Positions 2,834-8,260 of a stretch of DNA of 64,000 bases are shown piece by piece. The translations under genes were made by a program, and so were the position numbers. Origin of the DNA: CBDFMG01 sp965221205 [NCBI: bacterium]. Lineage in GTDB: Bacteria > SM23-31. The first letter of the stretch is position 1; each line of letters opens with the position of its first letter. The notes below the pieces were generated by a model. That model was not told where the DNA came from. It ran no database searches and saw only the letters and a program-made list of their open reading frames with translations. The stretch spans positions 806,001 to 870,000 of the forward strand of contig OZ244870.1 of NCBI GenBank assembly GCA_965221205.1. Direction: 5' to 3'.

Positions 2834-4288
2834 TTAAGCAACACCGGGAGATTCGTATGATTGTGATGAATTTGAGAGCTTTTTTGAGTGAGCTTCGAAC
2901 CACTGGAGGTGGTCACGCAGGCGTACAACTTCCCCGACAATAAGAAGTGCCGGAGATTCCATCGGTTCACTTTTGAGGATATCAGCTATTGTTTCAAGAG
3001 TTCCGGTAACCGTTTTTTGATTAGGTAAGGTGCCATTTTGAATGATTGCGACCGGCGTTTTAGGCGGACATCCGTTATTAATAAAGGAATATATAATTTC
3101 TTCGAGATTCGAGAGCGCCATGTAGACTGCAACGGTATCAATCCCAATTGCTAGTGCTTTCCAGTTAACAGCTCTCCGCTCTCCGGATGTGCTCTGGTGA
3201 CCGGCAATAAAGGCAAAACTCGAACTATACCGTCTGTCTGTCAGGGGGATACCCGCATAGGCAGTGGCTGCAACTGCGGCAGTTATTCCGGGTATTATCT
3301 CAAATTCTATACCTGCTTCAAAAAGGGCTTCTGCCTCTTCTCCACCTCTTCCAAAGACAAACGGATCGCCACCTTTGAGCCTGACAACAGTATTTCCCTC
3401 TTGTGCTCTAGTAATGAGCAGAGCATTAATGTCATCTTGATTACGTCTGTATTTACCGTATTTTTTCCCCACGAATATCCGCTCGGCAGCGTCACGTGCC
3501 TTCGCGAGCAGACGGCCGTCTACGAGGTAGTCATAAAGAATAACATCTGCCTCGTGCAAAGCTTTCAAACCTTTAACAGTAATCAAATCAGGATCACCAG
3601 GGCCGGCGCCAACTAAAAGCACCCTGCCTGTTTCAGCATGCGATTCGGGTTTCCTGCTTACTCGTGCGCTGGATATTGAGTCTTGCTCCAATTCACTATT
3701 TTTTTCGGCAGCTTCGAGACATTGCAACTCTTTGGCAACAATTTCTTCGAACATCGCTTTCCGTTTTTCATAATCTTCTGTTGAACTAAAGACAACTGGC
3801 CGAATATCACCGAGCCGATTTAGAAGATCGCTATAATCACTGCCAAACTGTTTTTTTACTCTGTCCCGTATAATCTTACCGAGTGTTGGACTTTTGCCAT
3901 TCGTTGATACAGCTACGCAAAGGTCGCCTTCTCTGTAGACAGATCCAAGATAAAATGAGCACAGTTCCGGAACGTCGGCAATATTAACGGGGATATTGTT
4001 CTCTTGAGCATCACGGAACACCACTTCATTCACGGTAGGATTATCCGTTGTCCCAAACACAATTGTATAACCGCTGCAATCCCCTGTTAGGTACTTTCTT
4101 TTGTGCAGAGTAAGTGCTTTGTCTGTCTGCAGATCCCGAATAGTATTGGTAACTTCAGGAGATATTACGGTAATATGTGCTTGAGCAGATTGGAGCTGCT
4201 TAATTTTCTGTTCTGCAACGGCACCTCCTCCGACAACGAGACACTGTGCGTTGTTCAAATTAATGAATATGGGAAGTAAATTATTCAT
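2834..4288 (-). CDS. cysG: Siroheme synthase (precorrin-2 dehydrogenase/ferrochelatase fused to uroporphyrinogen-III methyltransferase)
   Basis: Makes siroheme, the prosthetic group of the sulfite reductase encoded upstream. The N-terminal CysG/Met8-like domain has the NAD-binding CLVVGGGAVAEQKIKQL near residue 12 and an SPTLGKIIRDRVKKQF segment. The C-terminal half is an SAM-dependent SUMT domain with VGAGPGDPDLITVKGLKAL, RLKGGDPFVFGRGGEEAE and a GITAAVAATAYAGIPLTDR segment. The chosen ATG at 4288 gives 484 residues. A longer frame from a TTG at 4312 would start inside the hairpin region. It is the last gene of the sulfur block, 69 bp after the DUF2061 gene, with a terminator hairpin in between, so it may be expressed less than, or separately from, the upstream genes. 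Confidence 0.93.
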   Translation of the reverse strand: MNNLLPIFINLNNAQCLVVGGGAVAEQKIKQLQSAQAHITVISPEVTNTIRDLQTDKALTLHKRKYLTGDCSGYTIVFGTTDNPTVNEVVFRDAQENNIPVNIADVPELCSFYLGSVYREGDLCVAVSTNGKSPTLGKIIRDRVKKQFGSDYSDLLNRLGDIRPVVFSSTEDYEKRKAMFEEIVAKELQCLEAAEKNSELEQDSISSARVSRKPESHAETGRVLLVGAGPGDPDLITVKGLKALHEADVILYDYLVDGRLLAKARDAAERIFVGKKYGKYRRNQDDINALLITRAQEGNTVVRLKGGDPFVFGRGGEEAEALFEAGIEFEIIPGITAAVAATAYAGIPLTDRRYSSSFAFIAGHQSTSGERRAVNWKALAIGIDTVAVYMALSNLEEIIYSFINNGCPPKTPVAIIQNGTLPNQKTVTGTLETIADILKSEPMESPALLIVGEVVRLRDHLQWFEAHSKKLSNSSQSYESPGVA

Positions 4289-4313
4289 GATGTTGTTTTG
4301 TGTACTGCGCAAA

Positions 4314-4357: not shown

Positions 4358-4591
4358 CTATTCAAGTGTCGCTTGCTGTTCGAGGACTGCCGGCTGCTTT
4401 CTGAATCGGAGCCGGATCCACGCCCGCTCATGGAGATAATATGCAATTAGTTTGAAAATAGCATCCAAAATCCCGATAGATGCGGCAAATTTCGCTTCAC
4501 CGGTAATATACCATGCAATTACCATTGTTAACACCGTCGCGACAAATCTCCAGCTAATTGCTTTCAGCACACTGACTTTTGAGGAATCCAT
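4358..4591 (-). CDS. DUF2061 small membrane protein
   Basis: A 77-residue protein with two hydrophobic segments (FVATVLTMVIAWYITGE and a second from about residue 36, ASIGILDAIFKLIAYYL). The SVLKAISWRFVATV start and the YYLHERAW segment are typical of the DUF2061 family, which often sits beside sulfate assimilation genes. Its function is unknown; a role in membrane transport or operon-linked accessory work is inference from location. It starts 18 bp after the cysH stop, with a terminator hairpin downstream. Confidence 0.85.
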   Translation of the reverse strand: MDSSKVSVLKAISWRFVATVLTMVIAWYITGEAKFAASIGILDAIFKLIAYYLHERAWIRLRFRKQPAVLEQQATLE

Positions 4592-4609: not shown

Positions 4610-5329
4610 CTATTGTGTCTCGACTTCTACACCAAGCGGACGAGTATGAATACCACATTCTCCGCCACACTTGCTTGTGCCAATCCATCTGCCGGCACGT
4701 TCGTCTTCACCGACTGAAATGCTTGAGCACGGAGCACAACCAAGCGATCTGTATCCCTCGCCATACAACGGATTTATCTCAACATCGTTGAGGGCAAGGT
4801 ACTGCCAAACCTCACGTTCATACCAGATAAGAATCGGGTTCAGCTTAACGAGATTTTTGTCGCGTTGTTCAATTTCTTTATAATCTGTTCTTGTGCGGCC
4901 TTCTGTACACCGCAATCCGGTCACCCAGCAGGTTACATTCATTTCCCGAACAGCACGCCGTACCGGTTCGACTTTCAAGTTGTCGCAGCACTGATCTGGA
5001 TCCGTCAGGTAGAGTTTGTCGGGCTGCTCAGTATCGTTTTTGAATACCTTAAGCGTCGGATATTTTTTTACGAGTCTATGCATCAACTCAATTGTCTCTT
5101 TCGGTTTATACCGTGTTGTTACAATAAAACCTTTAATGTCCTTGCTCACTCTTTGAGCCAGATCCCACACAACGAGCGAATCTTTTCCGAGACTGTTCGC
5201 AACCACAAGTCGATCACCATATTTTTCGTGTGCATCACTGATAAGTGATAAAGCTCTGTCAACTTTCTGTTTATAGTTCAGCCCTTTGACAAGTTCAGTA
5301 ACATTTTCTCCATTTCCAGCAAAACTCAT
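4610..5329 (-). CDS. cysH: Assimilatory APS/PAPS reductase, iron-sulfur type
   Basis: Reduces adenylylsulfate (or PAPS) to sulfite with electrons from thioredoxin. The PP-loop-like VVANSLGKDSLVVWDLA lies at about residues 42-58. The paired CC (DQCCDNLKVEP) and the later CAPC (GYRSLGCAPCSS) are the four ligands of the [4Fe-4S] cluster found in the APS-using type, and the catalytic Cys is in KCGGECGIH near the C-terminus. The cluster cysteines favour APS as substrate, but this is a family rule and not proof. Length 239 residues. It lies about 100 bp downstream of the sulfite reductase gene on the same strand. No ATP sulfurylase gene is in the window. Confidence 0.93.
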   Translation of the reverse strand: MSFAGNGENVTELVKGLNYKQKVDRALSLISDAHEKYGDRLVVANSLGKDSLVVWDLAQRVSKDIKGFIVTTRYKPKETIELMHRLVKKYPTLKVFKNDTEQPDKLYLTDPDQCCDNLKVEPVRRAVREMNVTCWVTGLRCTEGRTRTDYKEIEQRDKNLVKLNPILIWYEREVWQYLALNDVEINPLYGEGYRSLGCAPCSSISVGEDERAGRWIGTSKCGGECGIHTRPLGVEVETQ

Positions 5330-5431: not shown

Positions 5432-7204
5432 TCAACTCATACATTCGCCGGGACCAGTATTGACAATAAAATCTGTATCTTCACCGATGTCAGTATAATA
5501 TTCGGGAGCTTCCTCGTAATCCGGAATAAGCGCAAGGTCCTGCAGATGCTCTTTAAAGCTCCGCGAACCGACCCGCTTTACATAATCCCAAAAAGTTTCT
5601 TCTTCGTTCCGCTCTGACAGGAAGCGTTTTACAATTCTCATAACTGCCTCGGATCCACGTTTAGCGGGGATTTTCATAACATTATCCCCATAATTCTGTA
5701 AACCGGAATTGATACCGCCGCCGATAAACAAAATATAATGTGGTGCCAGCCGTCCTTTAACCTTTCTGACCGCACCGTGGAGCCCGATTGAAGCCACATG
5801 GTGTTGACCACACGAGTTCGGACACCCACTGATTTTAACTCTGAGGTCGCGTAAAATCTTGCTCCATCCGCTGTTTTCACGGAAAAAAGCGGTTAATTCG
5901 CTTCCAAGTGCTCGTGAATGGGTTATGCCTAATTGACAGGTATCAGCGCCGGGACATGCAGTTACGTTTCCGATTGAGTCTGCACCCGGCGTTTCAAGCC
6001 CTGCCTTTTTAAGGTCACTATAGAGATGCATCAAGTCGTCTGTTTTTATCCATCTGAGAATTATGTCTTGTGTCGCAGATGTCCGGACTGTACCATCTGA
6101 ATAGGATTCAGAAATTTTTGCAAGTGCATAAAATTGTTCCGATGTTAAATCACCGATTATTGGGTTTACATAGACAATATTATACCCCTTCTGTTTTTGA
6201 TGGGATATGTTTGTCTGTCTCCAGAACTCAAATTCATGCTGGGCAATATCACTAACATCGGGCTTCTCAGTTACACTGTACTCTGGAGGTTCTTCATCAT
6301 AAAGTTCAACTTCGGGAACTTTTGTCCCTTTGGGGAACAGCCGGTCGCGCTCTTTATAAACATACTTTTTGAAATTCTGAAAGCCGAGTTTCCACAAAAC
6401 ATATTTCATCCGTGCGCGTTTTCTATTGACGTGATCACCATGCTTGTCGAACACAGAAATAATCGCTGCAGATACCTGAACAAACTGCTCAACCGGCAAA
6501 AATTCCTCGAACACGTCTGCTACACGGGTATGTGCACCGAGTCCGCCGCCGACGTAGACTTTGAATCCTCGCCGTTCAGAACCGTTTTCACCTATTGTTG
6601 TTGCCACAAATCCTATATCGTGTATCCAAGGGATAATTCCATCTCTGTCGGCATCGGCACCGGAAAATGAAATTTTGAATTTCCGGGGAAGCTTCGATGT
6701 AAGTTCGTTGCGCATCAGATATTTCGTTAGCGTGAGTAGATACGGAGTAATATCAAAGGCTTCTTCCCGCGAAACACCGGCAACCGGCGAACCGACAACA
6801 TTCCTGATAGTATTGCCGCACGCCTCTCGTGTCGTCAAACCTGTTTCGGCAAGCTTTTTCATCACCTGCGGAACTGTTTCAATTTTTACCCAGTGGTACT
6901 GTATATCCTGCCGGGTTGTTACATGGCCGAGACCATCTGCATATTCCGCAGCAACATAGCCGATTGTTCTGAGCTGTTCCGACGAAAGGATGCCGCCTGG
7001 AATCTTAACACGAATCATGTTCAGACCGGGCTGGTCAATACGCTGACCGTATATACCCCGCTTCAAACGGAAGCTTCTGAATTCATCATCGGAAACCTCG
7101 CCGTTTTTTAACTTCTCAAGCATTTTTTTGAAGTCTTTGATATCCTCATGTAGATCTTCTGCTGTATCAACAGCAAAACGTGGATAACCTAATTGTATGT
7201 CCAT
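5432..7204 (-). CDS. Siroheme-dependent sulfite (or nitrite) reductase
   Basis: A ferredoxin-type siroheme/[4Fe-4S] reductase that would reduce sulfite to sulfide by six electrons. The two-fold repeated ferredoxin-like and siroheme-binding halves are visible. Motifs include ACGNTIRNVVGSPVAG, VTACPGADTCQLGIT and KISGCPNSCGQHHVASIG; the last two hold the cluster and siroheme cysteines. The ATG at 7204 gives 590 residues. A longer frame from a TTG at 7234 is less likely. There is no Shine-Dalgarno sequence ahead of the ATG. Position at the head of a cysH-DUF2061-cysG block, and the Cys-codon leader upstream, favour sulfite over nitrite. The same family does include nitrite reductases, so the substrate is inferred. 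Confidence 0.88.
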   Translation of the reverse strand: MDIQLGYPRFAVDTAEDLHEDIKDFKKMLEKLKNGEVSDDEFRSFRLKRGIYGQRIDQPGLNMIRVKIPGGILSSEQLRTIGYVAAEYADGLGHVTTRQDIQYHWVKIETVPQVMKKLAETGLTTREACGNTIRNVVGSPVAGVSREEAFDITPYLLTLTKYLMRNELTSKLPRKFKISFSGADADRDGIIPWIHDIGFVATTIGENGSERRGFKVYVGGGLGAHTRVADVFEEFLPVEQFVQVSAAIISVFDKHGDHVNRKRARMKYVLWKLGFQNFKKYVYKERDRLFPKGTKVPEVELYDEEPPEYSVTEKPDVSDIAQHEFEFWRQTNISHQKQKGYNIVYVNPIIGDLTSEQFYALAKISESYSDGTVRTSATQDIILRWIKTDDLMHLYSDLKKAGLETPGADSIGNVTACPGADTCQLGITHSRALGSELTAFFRENSGWSKILRDLRVKISGCPNSCGQHHVASIGLHGAVRKVKGRLAPHYILFIGGGINSGLQNYGDNVMKIPAKRGSEAVMRIVKRFLSERNEEETFWDYVKRVGSRSFKEHLQDLALIPDYEEAPEYYTDIGEDTDFIVNTGPGECMS

Positions 7205-7261
7205 AGTATCTATCTTTTTTTGTTGTTTGTTCAAATATAATGAGCGTGAATTATAGGTATT

Positions 7262-7296
7262 AAAAAAGCCGCCTGTGAAAGTGCACCTCCGACGGC
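7262..7296 (-). terminator. Attenuator terminator in the leader of the sulfite reductase operon
   Basis: On the minus strand the arms GCCGTC (7296-7291) and GGCGGC (7273-7268) pair, with one G-T pair, around a loop that can itself fold through GTG and CAC, and TTTTTT follows. It lies between the Cys-rich leader frame and the first structural gene, 58 nt before the ATG at 7204. Its upstream half overlaps the 3' side of the antiterminator at 7281-7335. Confidence 0.8.
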
Positions 7297-7335
7297 CTCG
7301 TGATATATAAATTGTATGTATCGGACGCTATGCAC
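7281..7335 (-). promoter_or_regulatory. Candidate antiterminator of the Cys attenuator
   Basis: On the minus strand GTGCATAGCGTCCGA (7335-7321) lies just after the leader stop. Its parts TCCGA and GTGCA pair with TCGGA and TGCAC in TCGGAGGTGCAC (7292-7281), giving ten pairs around a small internal loop. This helix and the terminator hairpin cannot form together. A ribosome stalled on the Cys codons would leave the first strand free and favour antitermination. A ribosome reaching the stop codon would cover it. The pairing was drawn by eye. Confidence 0.65.
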
Positions 7336-7339
7336 CTTC

Positions 7340-7393
7340 TCACTGTATTGCTGTACAATGACAACAACAAATACAACTCATTGCTTTTCTCAT
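7340..7393 (-). CDS. Cysteine-rich leader peptide of the sulfur operon
   Basis: A 17-codon frame, MRKAMSCICCCHCTAIQ, starts at ATG 7393 and ends at TGA 7340. Five of seven consecutive codons are Cys (all TGT). It precedes antiterminator and terminator structures and the sulfite reductase gene. This is the classical architecture of a leader peptide for transcription attenuation, in which scarcity of charged tRNA-Cys stalls the ribosome. The frame has no clear Shine-Dalgarno sequence, and ATG at codon 5 is an alternative start. A TATAAT-like -10 element on the minus strand at 7468-7473 would start a leader RNA of about 200 nt. The composition is far from chance, but expression is untested. Confidence 0.8.
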   Translation of the reverse strand: MRKAMSCICCCHCTAIQ

Positions 7394-7478
7394 ACAGAGG
7401 CCGATTTGCTTCAATGCGTCTATTCTGGTGTGCATTATTACGTATAATTACCAACGTTAATCATGTTATTATAGTAAG

Positions 7479-7508
7479 AAACCCTTCAAGCTGTGGCTTG
7501 AAGGGTTT
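7479..7508. other. Strong 12-bp hairpin upstream of the sulfur leader
   Basis: The perfect arms AAACCCTTCAAG and CTTGAAGGGTTT enclose a 6-nt loop. On the minus strand the second arm continues TTTCTTACT, a weak U-tract. It could be a terminator for transcripts arriving from the ddl side, or a 5' element of the sulfur leader. The choice cannot be made from sequence. Confidence 0.5.
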
Positions 7509-8052
7509 CAGAAATATCGTATTTACATGAACCTACCCATGCCACTGCCTTATACAAGGCATACAGATACAACAACACCTGCAGCATGCGGTCATATTCA
7601 ACATATATAGGTTTGAACGAGTCATGATAACTTGGCGAGTACTTTCAGTTTAAGAGCAACAGTTTAAGCATTAATATTTTAAAATGCAAGACCTTTTTAT
7701 GCCGTTAGCACCAACGCTCTTTTATAACTCTACCTGCTTACACATACAAACATATTATTTGATTTTAATAGTTCCATTATAAATATTTTACGTGATCGTA
7801 TACTTGGTTAAACAAATAAATCCTTAATCATTCCTTATTATAAGCAGGCTCTGCAAATGTACGAAAAAGCACTTTCACGGAACTCCGGCATTGTGGTTCA
7901 GTGTAAGCAGATAGGAAAGTATAATAAAGCTACTCGAATATCACTTCAAAAGCCTTGCATTAAACAGGAAGAACCGTCAGCCAAACAGTGAATCAAGATC
8001 GTTGAACGACATTAGTATAGTCTATCCGTTAATTGGACGAAGCTGATTATCA
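7509..8052. other. Gene-free AT-rich spacer
   Basis: No supported gene. It contains small inverted repeats (for example GCCTTATACAAGGC near 7540) and a 44-codon plus-strand frame from ATG 7857 that resembles nothing I know. The right end grades into a histidine-kinase relic, so part of this stretch may be older, fully decayed kinase sequence. Confidence 0.4.
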
Positions 8053-8260
8053 GATAGCGGTGCAGGTATTCCACATGAGGATATGAAGAAGATATTTGAG
8101 CCTGAATTCCGCACTAAAAAGAGTCGGATTAGGTTCGGAATTGGGTTGTACACATCACATAATATAATTCTGAGACACATAAGGAACATTGGATATTAAA
8201 AGTCCGGTTGGAAAGGGTACTTCAACTACTATTTCACTTCCTAAAAAATTCAGAAGATAA
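8053..8260 (+). pseudogene. Histidine kinase ATP-binding domain relic
   Basis: The segment reads DSGAGIPHEDMKKIFEPEF, then a degenerate GIGLYTSHNII, and after a frameshift DIKSPVGKGTSTTISLP with a TAA at 8258-8260. These are the G1 box, F box, G2 box and final strand of the HATPase_c domain of a two-component sensor kinase. There is at least one frameshift between the G2 box and the end, another just before the G1 box, and no N-terminal half, so it cannot encode a working protein. Confidence 0.75.

Follow-up and report, generated by a model that had tools for sequence, protein, structure and literature searches.

What controls the sulfite reductase operon sir-cysH-DUF2061-cysG in a 64,000-nt stretch of the bacterial genome CBDFMG01 sp965221205 (GenBank assembly GCA_965221205.1, contig OZ244870.1, positions 806,001 to 870,000; the whole stretch is called the window below)? 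The operon is located on the minus strand, and its leader region extends between the end of a D-Ala-D-Ala ligase gene (8275) and the ATG of sir at 7204. The original prediction placed a Cys-codon leader peptide with an antiterminator and a terminator in this region, in the layout of attenuation by cysteine. That layout stood, supported by a switch that depends on the position of the modelled ribosome and by nine of nine sir relatives; the prediction had overlooked a further element upstream. We conclude that the leader of sir-cysH-DUF2061-cysG very likely controls transcription by ribosome-mediated attenuation in response to charged tRNA-Cys, through two units in series, and that these are probably two attenuators for one amino acid.

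Two mini open reading frames (ORFs) with Cys codons were found in series within the sir leader, each with an antiterminator and a terminator of its own (Table 1). The downstream one (element 2) is the element originally reported. Its frame with five Cys in seven codons (codons 7, 9, 10, 11, and 13) was located exactly as claimed. GTGCATAGCGTCCGA was found directly past the stop codon, and TCGGAGGTGCAC, the strand on the upstream side of the terminator with which it was said to pair, at 7292-7281. The T6 tail of the terminator occupies 7267-7262, about 58 nt ahead of the sir ATG, in agreement with the prediction, and the ORF ends about 135 nt from that ATG. An in-frame ATG at 7435 would give a 31-codon form of the peptide. 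In the upstream element (element 1) the antiterminator 5' strand overlaps the end of the ORF and its stop codon, and further in-frame ATGs are present upstream, at 7604 and 7625. Five or more Cys within seven codons are found in exactly two short ORFs of the window, both in the sir leader; the expectation from simulated sequences (100 Markov sequences each for order 1 and order 2) was 0.0 and 0.03 per 64 kb, respectively. No Rfam 15 family was matched at gathering score in the window, neither a T-box nor a riboswitch, and a riboswitch or T-box in the sir leader was set aside on this ground.

The reading frames and alternative pairings were computed directly, as was their dependence on ribosome position in a model in which the RNA below the ribosome was folded with each codon in turn in the A site. 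With a 14-nt footprint, a ribosome at the stop codon of element 2 gave the terminator a probability (P) of 0.87, compared with 0.01-0.11 for a ribosome at the five Cys codons. Across footprints of 10-18 nt the mean over the Cys codons was 0.05-0.13, and the contrast between stop and Cys codons held. Before the terminator 3' arm of element 1 exists, the 5' arm was sequestered with a P of 0.73 for a ribosome on Cys codons 1-6 and of 0.06 for one at the stop. When the stretch between ORF and terminator was shuffled 500 times, the contrast was equalled by two shuffles for element 1 and by two for element 2. In silico, the antiterminator and the terminator are mutually exclusive, for element 1 only before the terminator 3' arm is made.

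Table 1. Features of the two leader elements and of the operon that follows them (positions in the window)
Feature	Position	Strand	Details
Element 1 leader ORF	7533..7595	-	MTACCRCCCICMPCIRQWHG; 7 Cys codons; ATG 7595 to TAG 7533
Element 1 antiterminator 5' strand	7529..7545	-	GTGGCATGGGTAGGTTC; pairs with 7509-7493, -14.9 kcal/mol
Element 1 terminator hairpin	7478..7509	-	14-bp stem, -23.5 kcal/mol (folding)
Element 2 leader ORF	7340..7393	-	MRKAMSCICCCHCTAIQ; 5 Cys codons; ATG 7393-7391, TGA 7342-7340
Element 2 antiterminator 5' strand	7321..7336	-	GGTGCATAGCGTCCGA; pairs with 7292-7281, -16.0 kcal/mol
Element 2 terminator	7262..7299	-	GCCGTC/GGCGGC core, inner GTG/CAC, T6 tail; -14.5 kcal/mol
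sir, first gene of the operon	5432..7234	-	Sulfite reductase of NIR_SIR type (Pfam); start ATG 7204 or TTG 7234
cysH	4610..5329	-	PAPS_reduct (Pfam)
DUF2061 gene	4358..4591	-	Membrane protein (Pfam)
cysG	2834..4312	-	CysG-type siroheme synthase: NAD_binding_7 + Sirohm_synth_M + TP_methylase (Pfam)

The gene order claimed for the operon was upheld by Pfam for all four genes. With plentiful Cys-tRNA, a ribosome translating either leader would reach its stop codon and cover the antiterminator strand; the terminator would then form, and transcription would end before sir. With scarce Cys-tRNA, the ribosome would stall on the Cys codons and leave the antiterminator strand free to capture the terminator 5' arm, and the polymerase would read on. 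The operon would in this way respond to cysteine. Both elements would be carried on a single transcript, and since the second attenuator sits below the first, full-length mRNA would require passing both.

The specificity of the pairing was assessed by swap tests, in which the RNA between the Cys run and the terminator was paired with the 5' arm and loop of a terminator, its own or that of another leader. These tests were preferred to a base-pair count on the alignment, since the pairing is shifted by one base between sub-clades. With L075 omitted, 29 leaders gave -16.9 kcal/mol for own pairs and -12.6 kcal/mol for swapped pairs, and none of 20,000 permutations reached the own mean. The values were -17.6 and -13.0 kcal/mol for 21 chosen leaders, and -16.2 and -11.7 kcal/mol (0/20,000 permutations) when one close sir leader was kept (n = 21). 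Removal of the window elements from such a set (n = 19) gave -16.3 and -11.7 kcal/mol, again with 0/20,000 permutations. Weak pairing was seen in L020 and L079 (-7.3 and -8.5).

Conservation in the nearest relatives was likewise observed directly. The nearest sir genes (51-54% identity by tblastn; nine loci from eight genomes) are all preceded by a Cys-run leader, a terminator, and the antiterminator pairing (for example MITSTSSRTNKACAACACCCCICMMGSLCFREGVGP in L001). The Cys codons and stems, on the conservation of which the original prediction depended, are kept at this distance, and distant sir genes are mostly without them. A shared strand at the ORF end, TTTCGCGAAGG, pairs with the terminator 5' arm in 9/9 relatives. 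It is read in phase 0 relative to the Cys codons in five of these leaders and in phase 1 in four, so that the RNA, rather than the peptide, is what has been conserved there. In seven relatives that were simulated, P of the antiterminator before the 3' arm is made was mostly high on Cys codons (0.22-1.00) and had dropped to at most 0.35 by four to seven codons past the Cys run. At a greater distance, single Cys codons would, in this model, not favour antitermination. A TTGACA-17-TAnnTT site was found by script 8-13 nt before the leader ATG in eight of the nine relatives (in the ninth, L046, the script gave another site), and a leaderless start appears likely in these genomes. With 8 duplicates removed and the window counted in, there were 47 distinct regions upstream of sir, of which 19, 15, and 12 contain an ORF with at least three, four, and five Cys in eight codons, respectively. 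At least three Cys were found in 1/20 upstream regions of AspRS genes, which served as a control, and shuffled upstream regions reached the three thresholds in 5.1, 0.3, and 0% of cases.

Only the nine sir leaders, and not the window, were used to train a covariance model (R1). Up to an E of 1, the model gave two matches in the window, one at element 1 (7579-7473) with 40.1 bits (E 7e-8), the other at element 2 (7371-7260) with 15.2 bits, marginal at E 0.085 over 64 kb. Applied to 197 genomes from the class to which G001 belongs, R1 matched 48 places, nine of them training leaders; 35 of the other 39 were read. Cys leaders ahead of cysteine genes account for all of the top four non-training matches (72, 62, 58, and 51 bits). 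Nine of the 35 are Cys-codon leaders above sulfur or cysteine genes, namely cysE-cysK (L153, L156), a cysM-like gene (L154, L155), cysK (L161, L165), cysH (L167, L187), and O-acetylhomoserine sulfhydrylase (L159). The leaders ahead of cysH are 450-500 nt above the gene, and the leader of L187 has two Cys only, next to Met. Gene names at these loci were checked with NCBIfam; both cysE score below the TIGR01172 cut-off and both cysM-like genes below that of TIGR01138. Five further matches are Trp leaders (e.g. WAWWWY) with terminators ahead of trpE (L169, L170, L171, L178, L179), and three are Met leaders ahead of O-acetylhomoserine sulfhydrylase (L168, L172, L185).

The three Met loci contain tandem Met-rich leaders (L168 300-760, L172 2660-3090, L185 130-560), and behind each of these comes a hairpin that, by eye, is terminator-like and has a T tract. 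Stacked pairs of leaders for the same amino acid are seen for Cys before sir in the window and for Met before O-acetylhomoserine sulfhydrylase in three genomes. We regard element 1 as a relative of the conserved sir attenuator and element 2 as a second one below it.

In L154 and L155, the gene after the cysM-like gene appeared by eye to encode a small JAMM metalloprotease-like protein, which would suggest a thiocarboxylate-dependent cysteine route. The only Rfam families detected in 12 related loci were S-adenosylmethionine (SAM) riboswitches, in two of them (RF00162; L001 631-741 and L165 3153-3268), on stretches also bearing Cys leaders. Two RNA sensors may therefore serve sulfur amino acid genes there.

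Several observations weigh against the reading of the sir leader as a tandem cysteine attenuator. The U tract of element 1 is imperfect (TTTCTTACTAT), and when folded at full length element 1 always formed the terminator (P 0.98-1.00), so that its switch can only be kinetic; the terminator was also preferred in the full-length RNA of all seven simulated relatives (P 1.00). The seventh Cys codon of element 1, which was excluded from the switch score, gave 0.53 only. For element 2, terminator P was 0.30-0.55 on the first Cys codon at footprints of 10-12 nt and 0.06-0.62 with the ribosome on the six codons preceding it. In two of the seven simulated relatives (L017 and L046), antiterminator P was down to 0.22-0.37 at single Cys codons. 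Plain folding was unremarkable for the whole of element 2 (z -1.83; 11/200 shuffles as good) and for the part past its stop (z -0.80; 43/200). A simple terminator scan of 6800-8200, which accepts loops of 3-8 only, gave no sites (shuffle mean 1.0) and found neither element. U-tailed hairpins of -9 kcal/mol or lower were present in 26/47 sir and 8/20 AspRS upstream regions, and a terminator alone is therefore not discriminating. In the swap tests the own terminator was the single best partner in 10/29 leaders, and the effect inside the close sir family was modest (180/5040 permutations).

The R1 results and the promoter scan contain further points of this kind. Of the 35 matches read, 18 have no matching leader and consist of terminators or other sequence; the two best of these score 43 and 41 bits (L157, L158), and the 40 bits of element 1 are therefore not proof by themselves. 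Opposite-strand matches to terminators reached 27 bits, which makes the 15 bits of element 2 weak support when taken alone. The promoter scan gave no clear promoter for either window element. A sigma-70-like site, TTCACA-18-TATAAT, is present on the minus strand at 7279-7250, where it overlaps terminator 2 and extends below it; to judge from its match to the consensus (11/12), it could transcribe sir independently and bypass both elements. No tandem arrangement was found at the other Cys loci that were read.

The distribution of the element also has to be considered among these points. At 35-43% identity, 28/37 sir regions were without a Cys leader directly upstream, and the same was true for 14 of a further set of 17, with three having one. 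At least three Cys were present in 9/37 of the former regions, including L006, which has no terminator and looks like a chance case. Seven distant sir loci with leader and terminator were inspected closely (L003, L015, L020, L031, L034, L044, and L045). L003 and L015 belong to an Acidobacteriota genome (G003), which accounts for both Cys leaders among ten Acidobacteriota sir loci, the other eight being without. About 9 kb above sir was searched in 20 regions, and no Cys leader with a strong terminator was found; in 13 of these a gene chain lies directly above sir (gene names guessed from size). An ORF in L105 with three Cys in six codons was considered as a higher-up leader and rejected, its hairpin being just -3.2 kcal/mol. 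The element is thus patchy in Bacteroidota and outside the close sir group.

Other searches added little. The pattern TGYTGYTGYATHTGYATG was tried on 395 Bacteroidota genomes and set aside: it gave 10 sites in nine genomes versus two for the reversed control, leaders were present only at two sites in G001, and the other eight are apparent chance matches in another frame or on the other strand (by eye). The closest AspRS to that of the window among 247 Bacteroidota genomes has 55% identity, and the organism is therefore distant from all of them; we infer a position near Bacteroidota. A cysH search in the ten genomes with the closest AspRS, run without a positive control, gave no match. Eight weak R1 matches were counted in five of these ten genomes. 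Short plus-strand frames at 8083-8260, which lie between element 1 and the D-Ala-D-Ala ligase gene, resemble the end of a histidine kinase; a Pfam search gave no support for a decayed gene of this kind.

Could one element alone be active, element 1 working while element 2 is decayed or a chance look-alike, or the reverse? The score of element 2 (15 bits, E 0.085) falls within the range of the opposite-strand terminator matches, and element 1 combines the imperfect U tract with a terminator that is never escaped at equilibrium. Nevertheless, both have at least five Cys in seven codons and a switch equalled by 2/500 shuffles each, their own pairings reach -14.9 and -16.0 kcal/mol, and tandem pairs recur ahead of O-acetylhomoserine sulfhydrylase in three loci; we consider activity of one element alone unlikely. 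It appears improbable that the switch is real and yet minor, with most sir expression arising from a promoter that overlaps terminator 2 or lies below it. The site at 7279-7250 speaks for such a promoter with its 11/12 matches, but six promoter-like sites in the scan compare with 4.3 expected, and TTGACA-17-TAnnTT is present just above the leader ORF in eight of the nine sir relatives.

We give little credence to the view that the main effect of the Cys ORFs is on translation or on the stability of the mRNA (through stalled ribosomes, Rho, or reinitiation), a mode of action that has been proposed for mycobacteria, with the hairpins as ordinary terminators or processing signals. Cys leaders without conserved terminator hairpins have a precedent in mycobacteria (PMC1262725), and hairpin terminators are also common ahead of AspRS genes (8/20). 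However, the terminator 5' arm complements the RNA of its own leader better than that of other leaders, and the distance of about 135 nt from the end of element 2 to the sir ATG is far for translational coupling. The Cys density of the leader peptides would suit a small metal-binding or redox-sensing protein, in which case the peptides themselves would be functional. This is hardly credible, as the leaders use two different phases to read the conserved RNA behind the Cys run, the peptides differ between loci outside the run, and the layout recurs with Trp or Met codons at loci of other pathways.

If the interpretation as tandem cysteine attenuators is true, Bacteroidota have a cysteine form of amino-acid-specific leader-peptide attenuation that works with intrinsic terminators. 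Charged tRNA-Cys would then be the single signal for sulfate reduction, O-acetylserine synthesis, and cysteine synthase, without a regulator protein dedicated to the task, and sulfide would be made only under cysteine shortage. Attenuators in series for one amino acid would offer a testable means to sharpen the response. We see an evenly balanced case for the broader proposal that a Bacteroidota lineage, which would include the window organism, uses one recurring attenuator type for cysteine, tryptophan, and methionine, in places as stacked same-signal pairs that would make the response to tRNA charging multiplicative and steeper. Neither in the window nor in 12 related loci did the element match an Rfam 15 family, and such operons may therefore be annotated without a control region.

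Leader-peptide transcription attenuation is classically known from the trp, his, thr, ilv, and leu operons. The sir leader shares with these a run of codons for the amino acid of the pathway and, at the level of prediction, an exclusive choice between antiterminator and terminator and a U-tract terminator ahead of the first gene. It differs from them in that the amino acid sensed would be cysteine, that its relatives are in Bacteroidota, and that two attenuators with the same codon stand in series. A comparative study of attenuation by Lopatovskaya and colleagues from 2010 may overlap with the present findings.

A close known case is uORFC-8-2, a Cys-codon attenuator with a terminator before cysS in Rhodobacterales, which has been proposed to sense charged tRNA-Cys (PMC8632094). 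Both combine a short ORF that contains Cys codons with an intrinsic terminator, a predicted one in the case of sir. In uORFC-8-2, two tandem Cys codons precede cysS, whereas here clusters of at least three Cys precede genes of sulfate assimilation and cysteine synthesis; the sir leader was not assigned to this family, given the different gene, the longer Cys clusters, and the lack of an Rfam gathering match. Cys leaders of cys operons have been predicted in Actinobacteria without terminators, and those of mycobacteria lack conserved terminator hairpins (PMC1262725). The polycysteine uORFs of mycobacteria have contiguous Cys codons and a leaderless start (Canestrari 2020, as described in PMC9031893), and Cys uORFs also appear in figure legends for M. 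tuberculosis (PMC13236596). Contiguous Cys codons in short ORFs, which in Actinobacteria stand before cys operons, are shared with the sir leader, and the leaderless start of the mycobacterial uORFs is also likely in the sir relatives; unlike these leaders, the sir leader has a predicted intrinsic terminator and an antiterminator specific to each element. Other reports deal with clues for leader-peptide attenuation in Flavobacterium psychrophilum (PMC9723704), a survey of premature terminators (PMC2965389), and leaders of Streptomyces lividans, a Met leader among them (PMC8079986).

In the open-access literature, no report of Cys attenuators in Bacteroidota or of tandem leader attenuators for the same amino acid was found among the matches listed. 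The original prediction held that a Cys attenuator of this kind would be little known or new. This has to be narrowed, since Cys leaders have been predicted in Actinobacteria, a Cys attenuator has been described in Rhodobacterales, and leader-peptide attenuation has been suspected in F. psychrophilum; attenuation by leader peptides is a known kind of control, and it is the cysteine regulon in Bacteroidota and the tandem for one signal that look new. Tandem attenuating ORFs in one leader have been described for mgtCBR of Salmonella, where they respond to different signals, one of them proline (PMC3641672). The sir leader resembles mgtCBR in having two candidate ORFs of this kind and differs in that both elements would respond to one amino acid. 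Stacked attenuators of this type would be the ribosome-sensing counterpart of tandem riboswitches.
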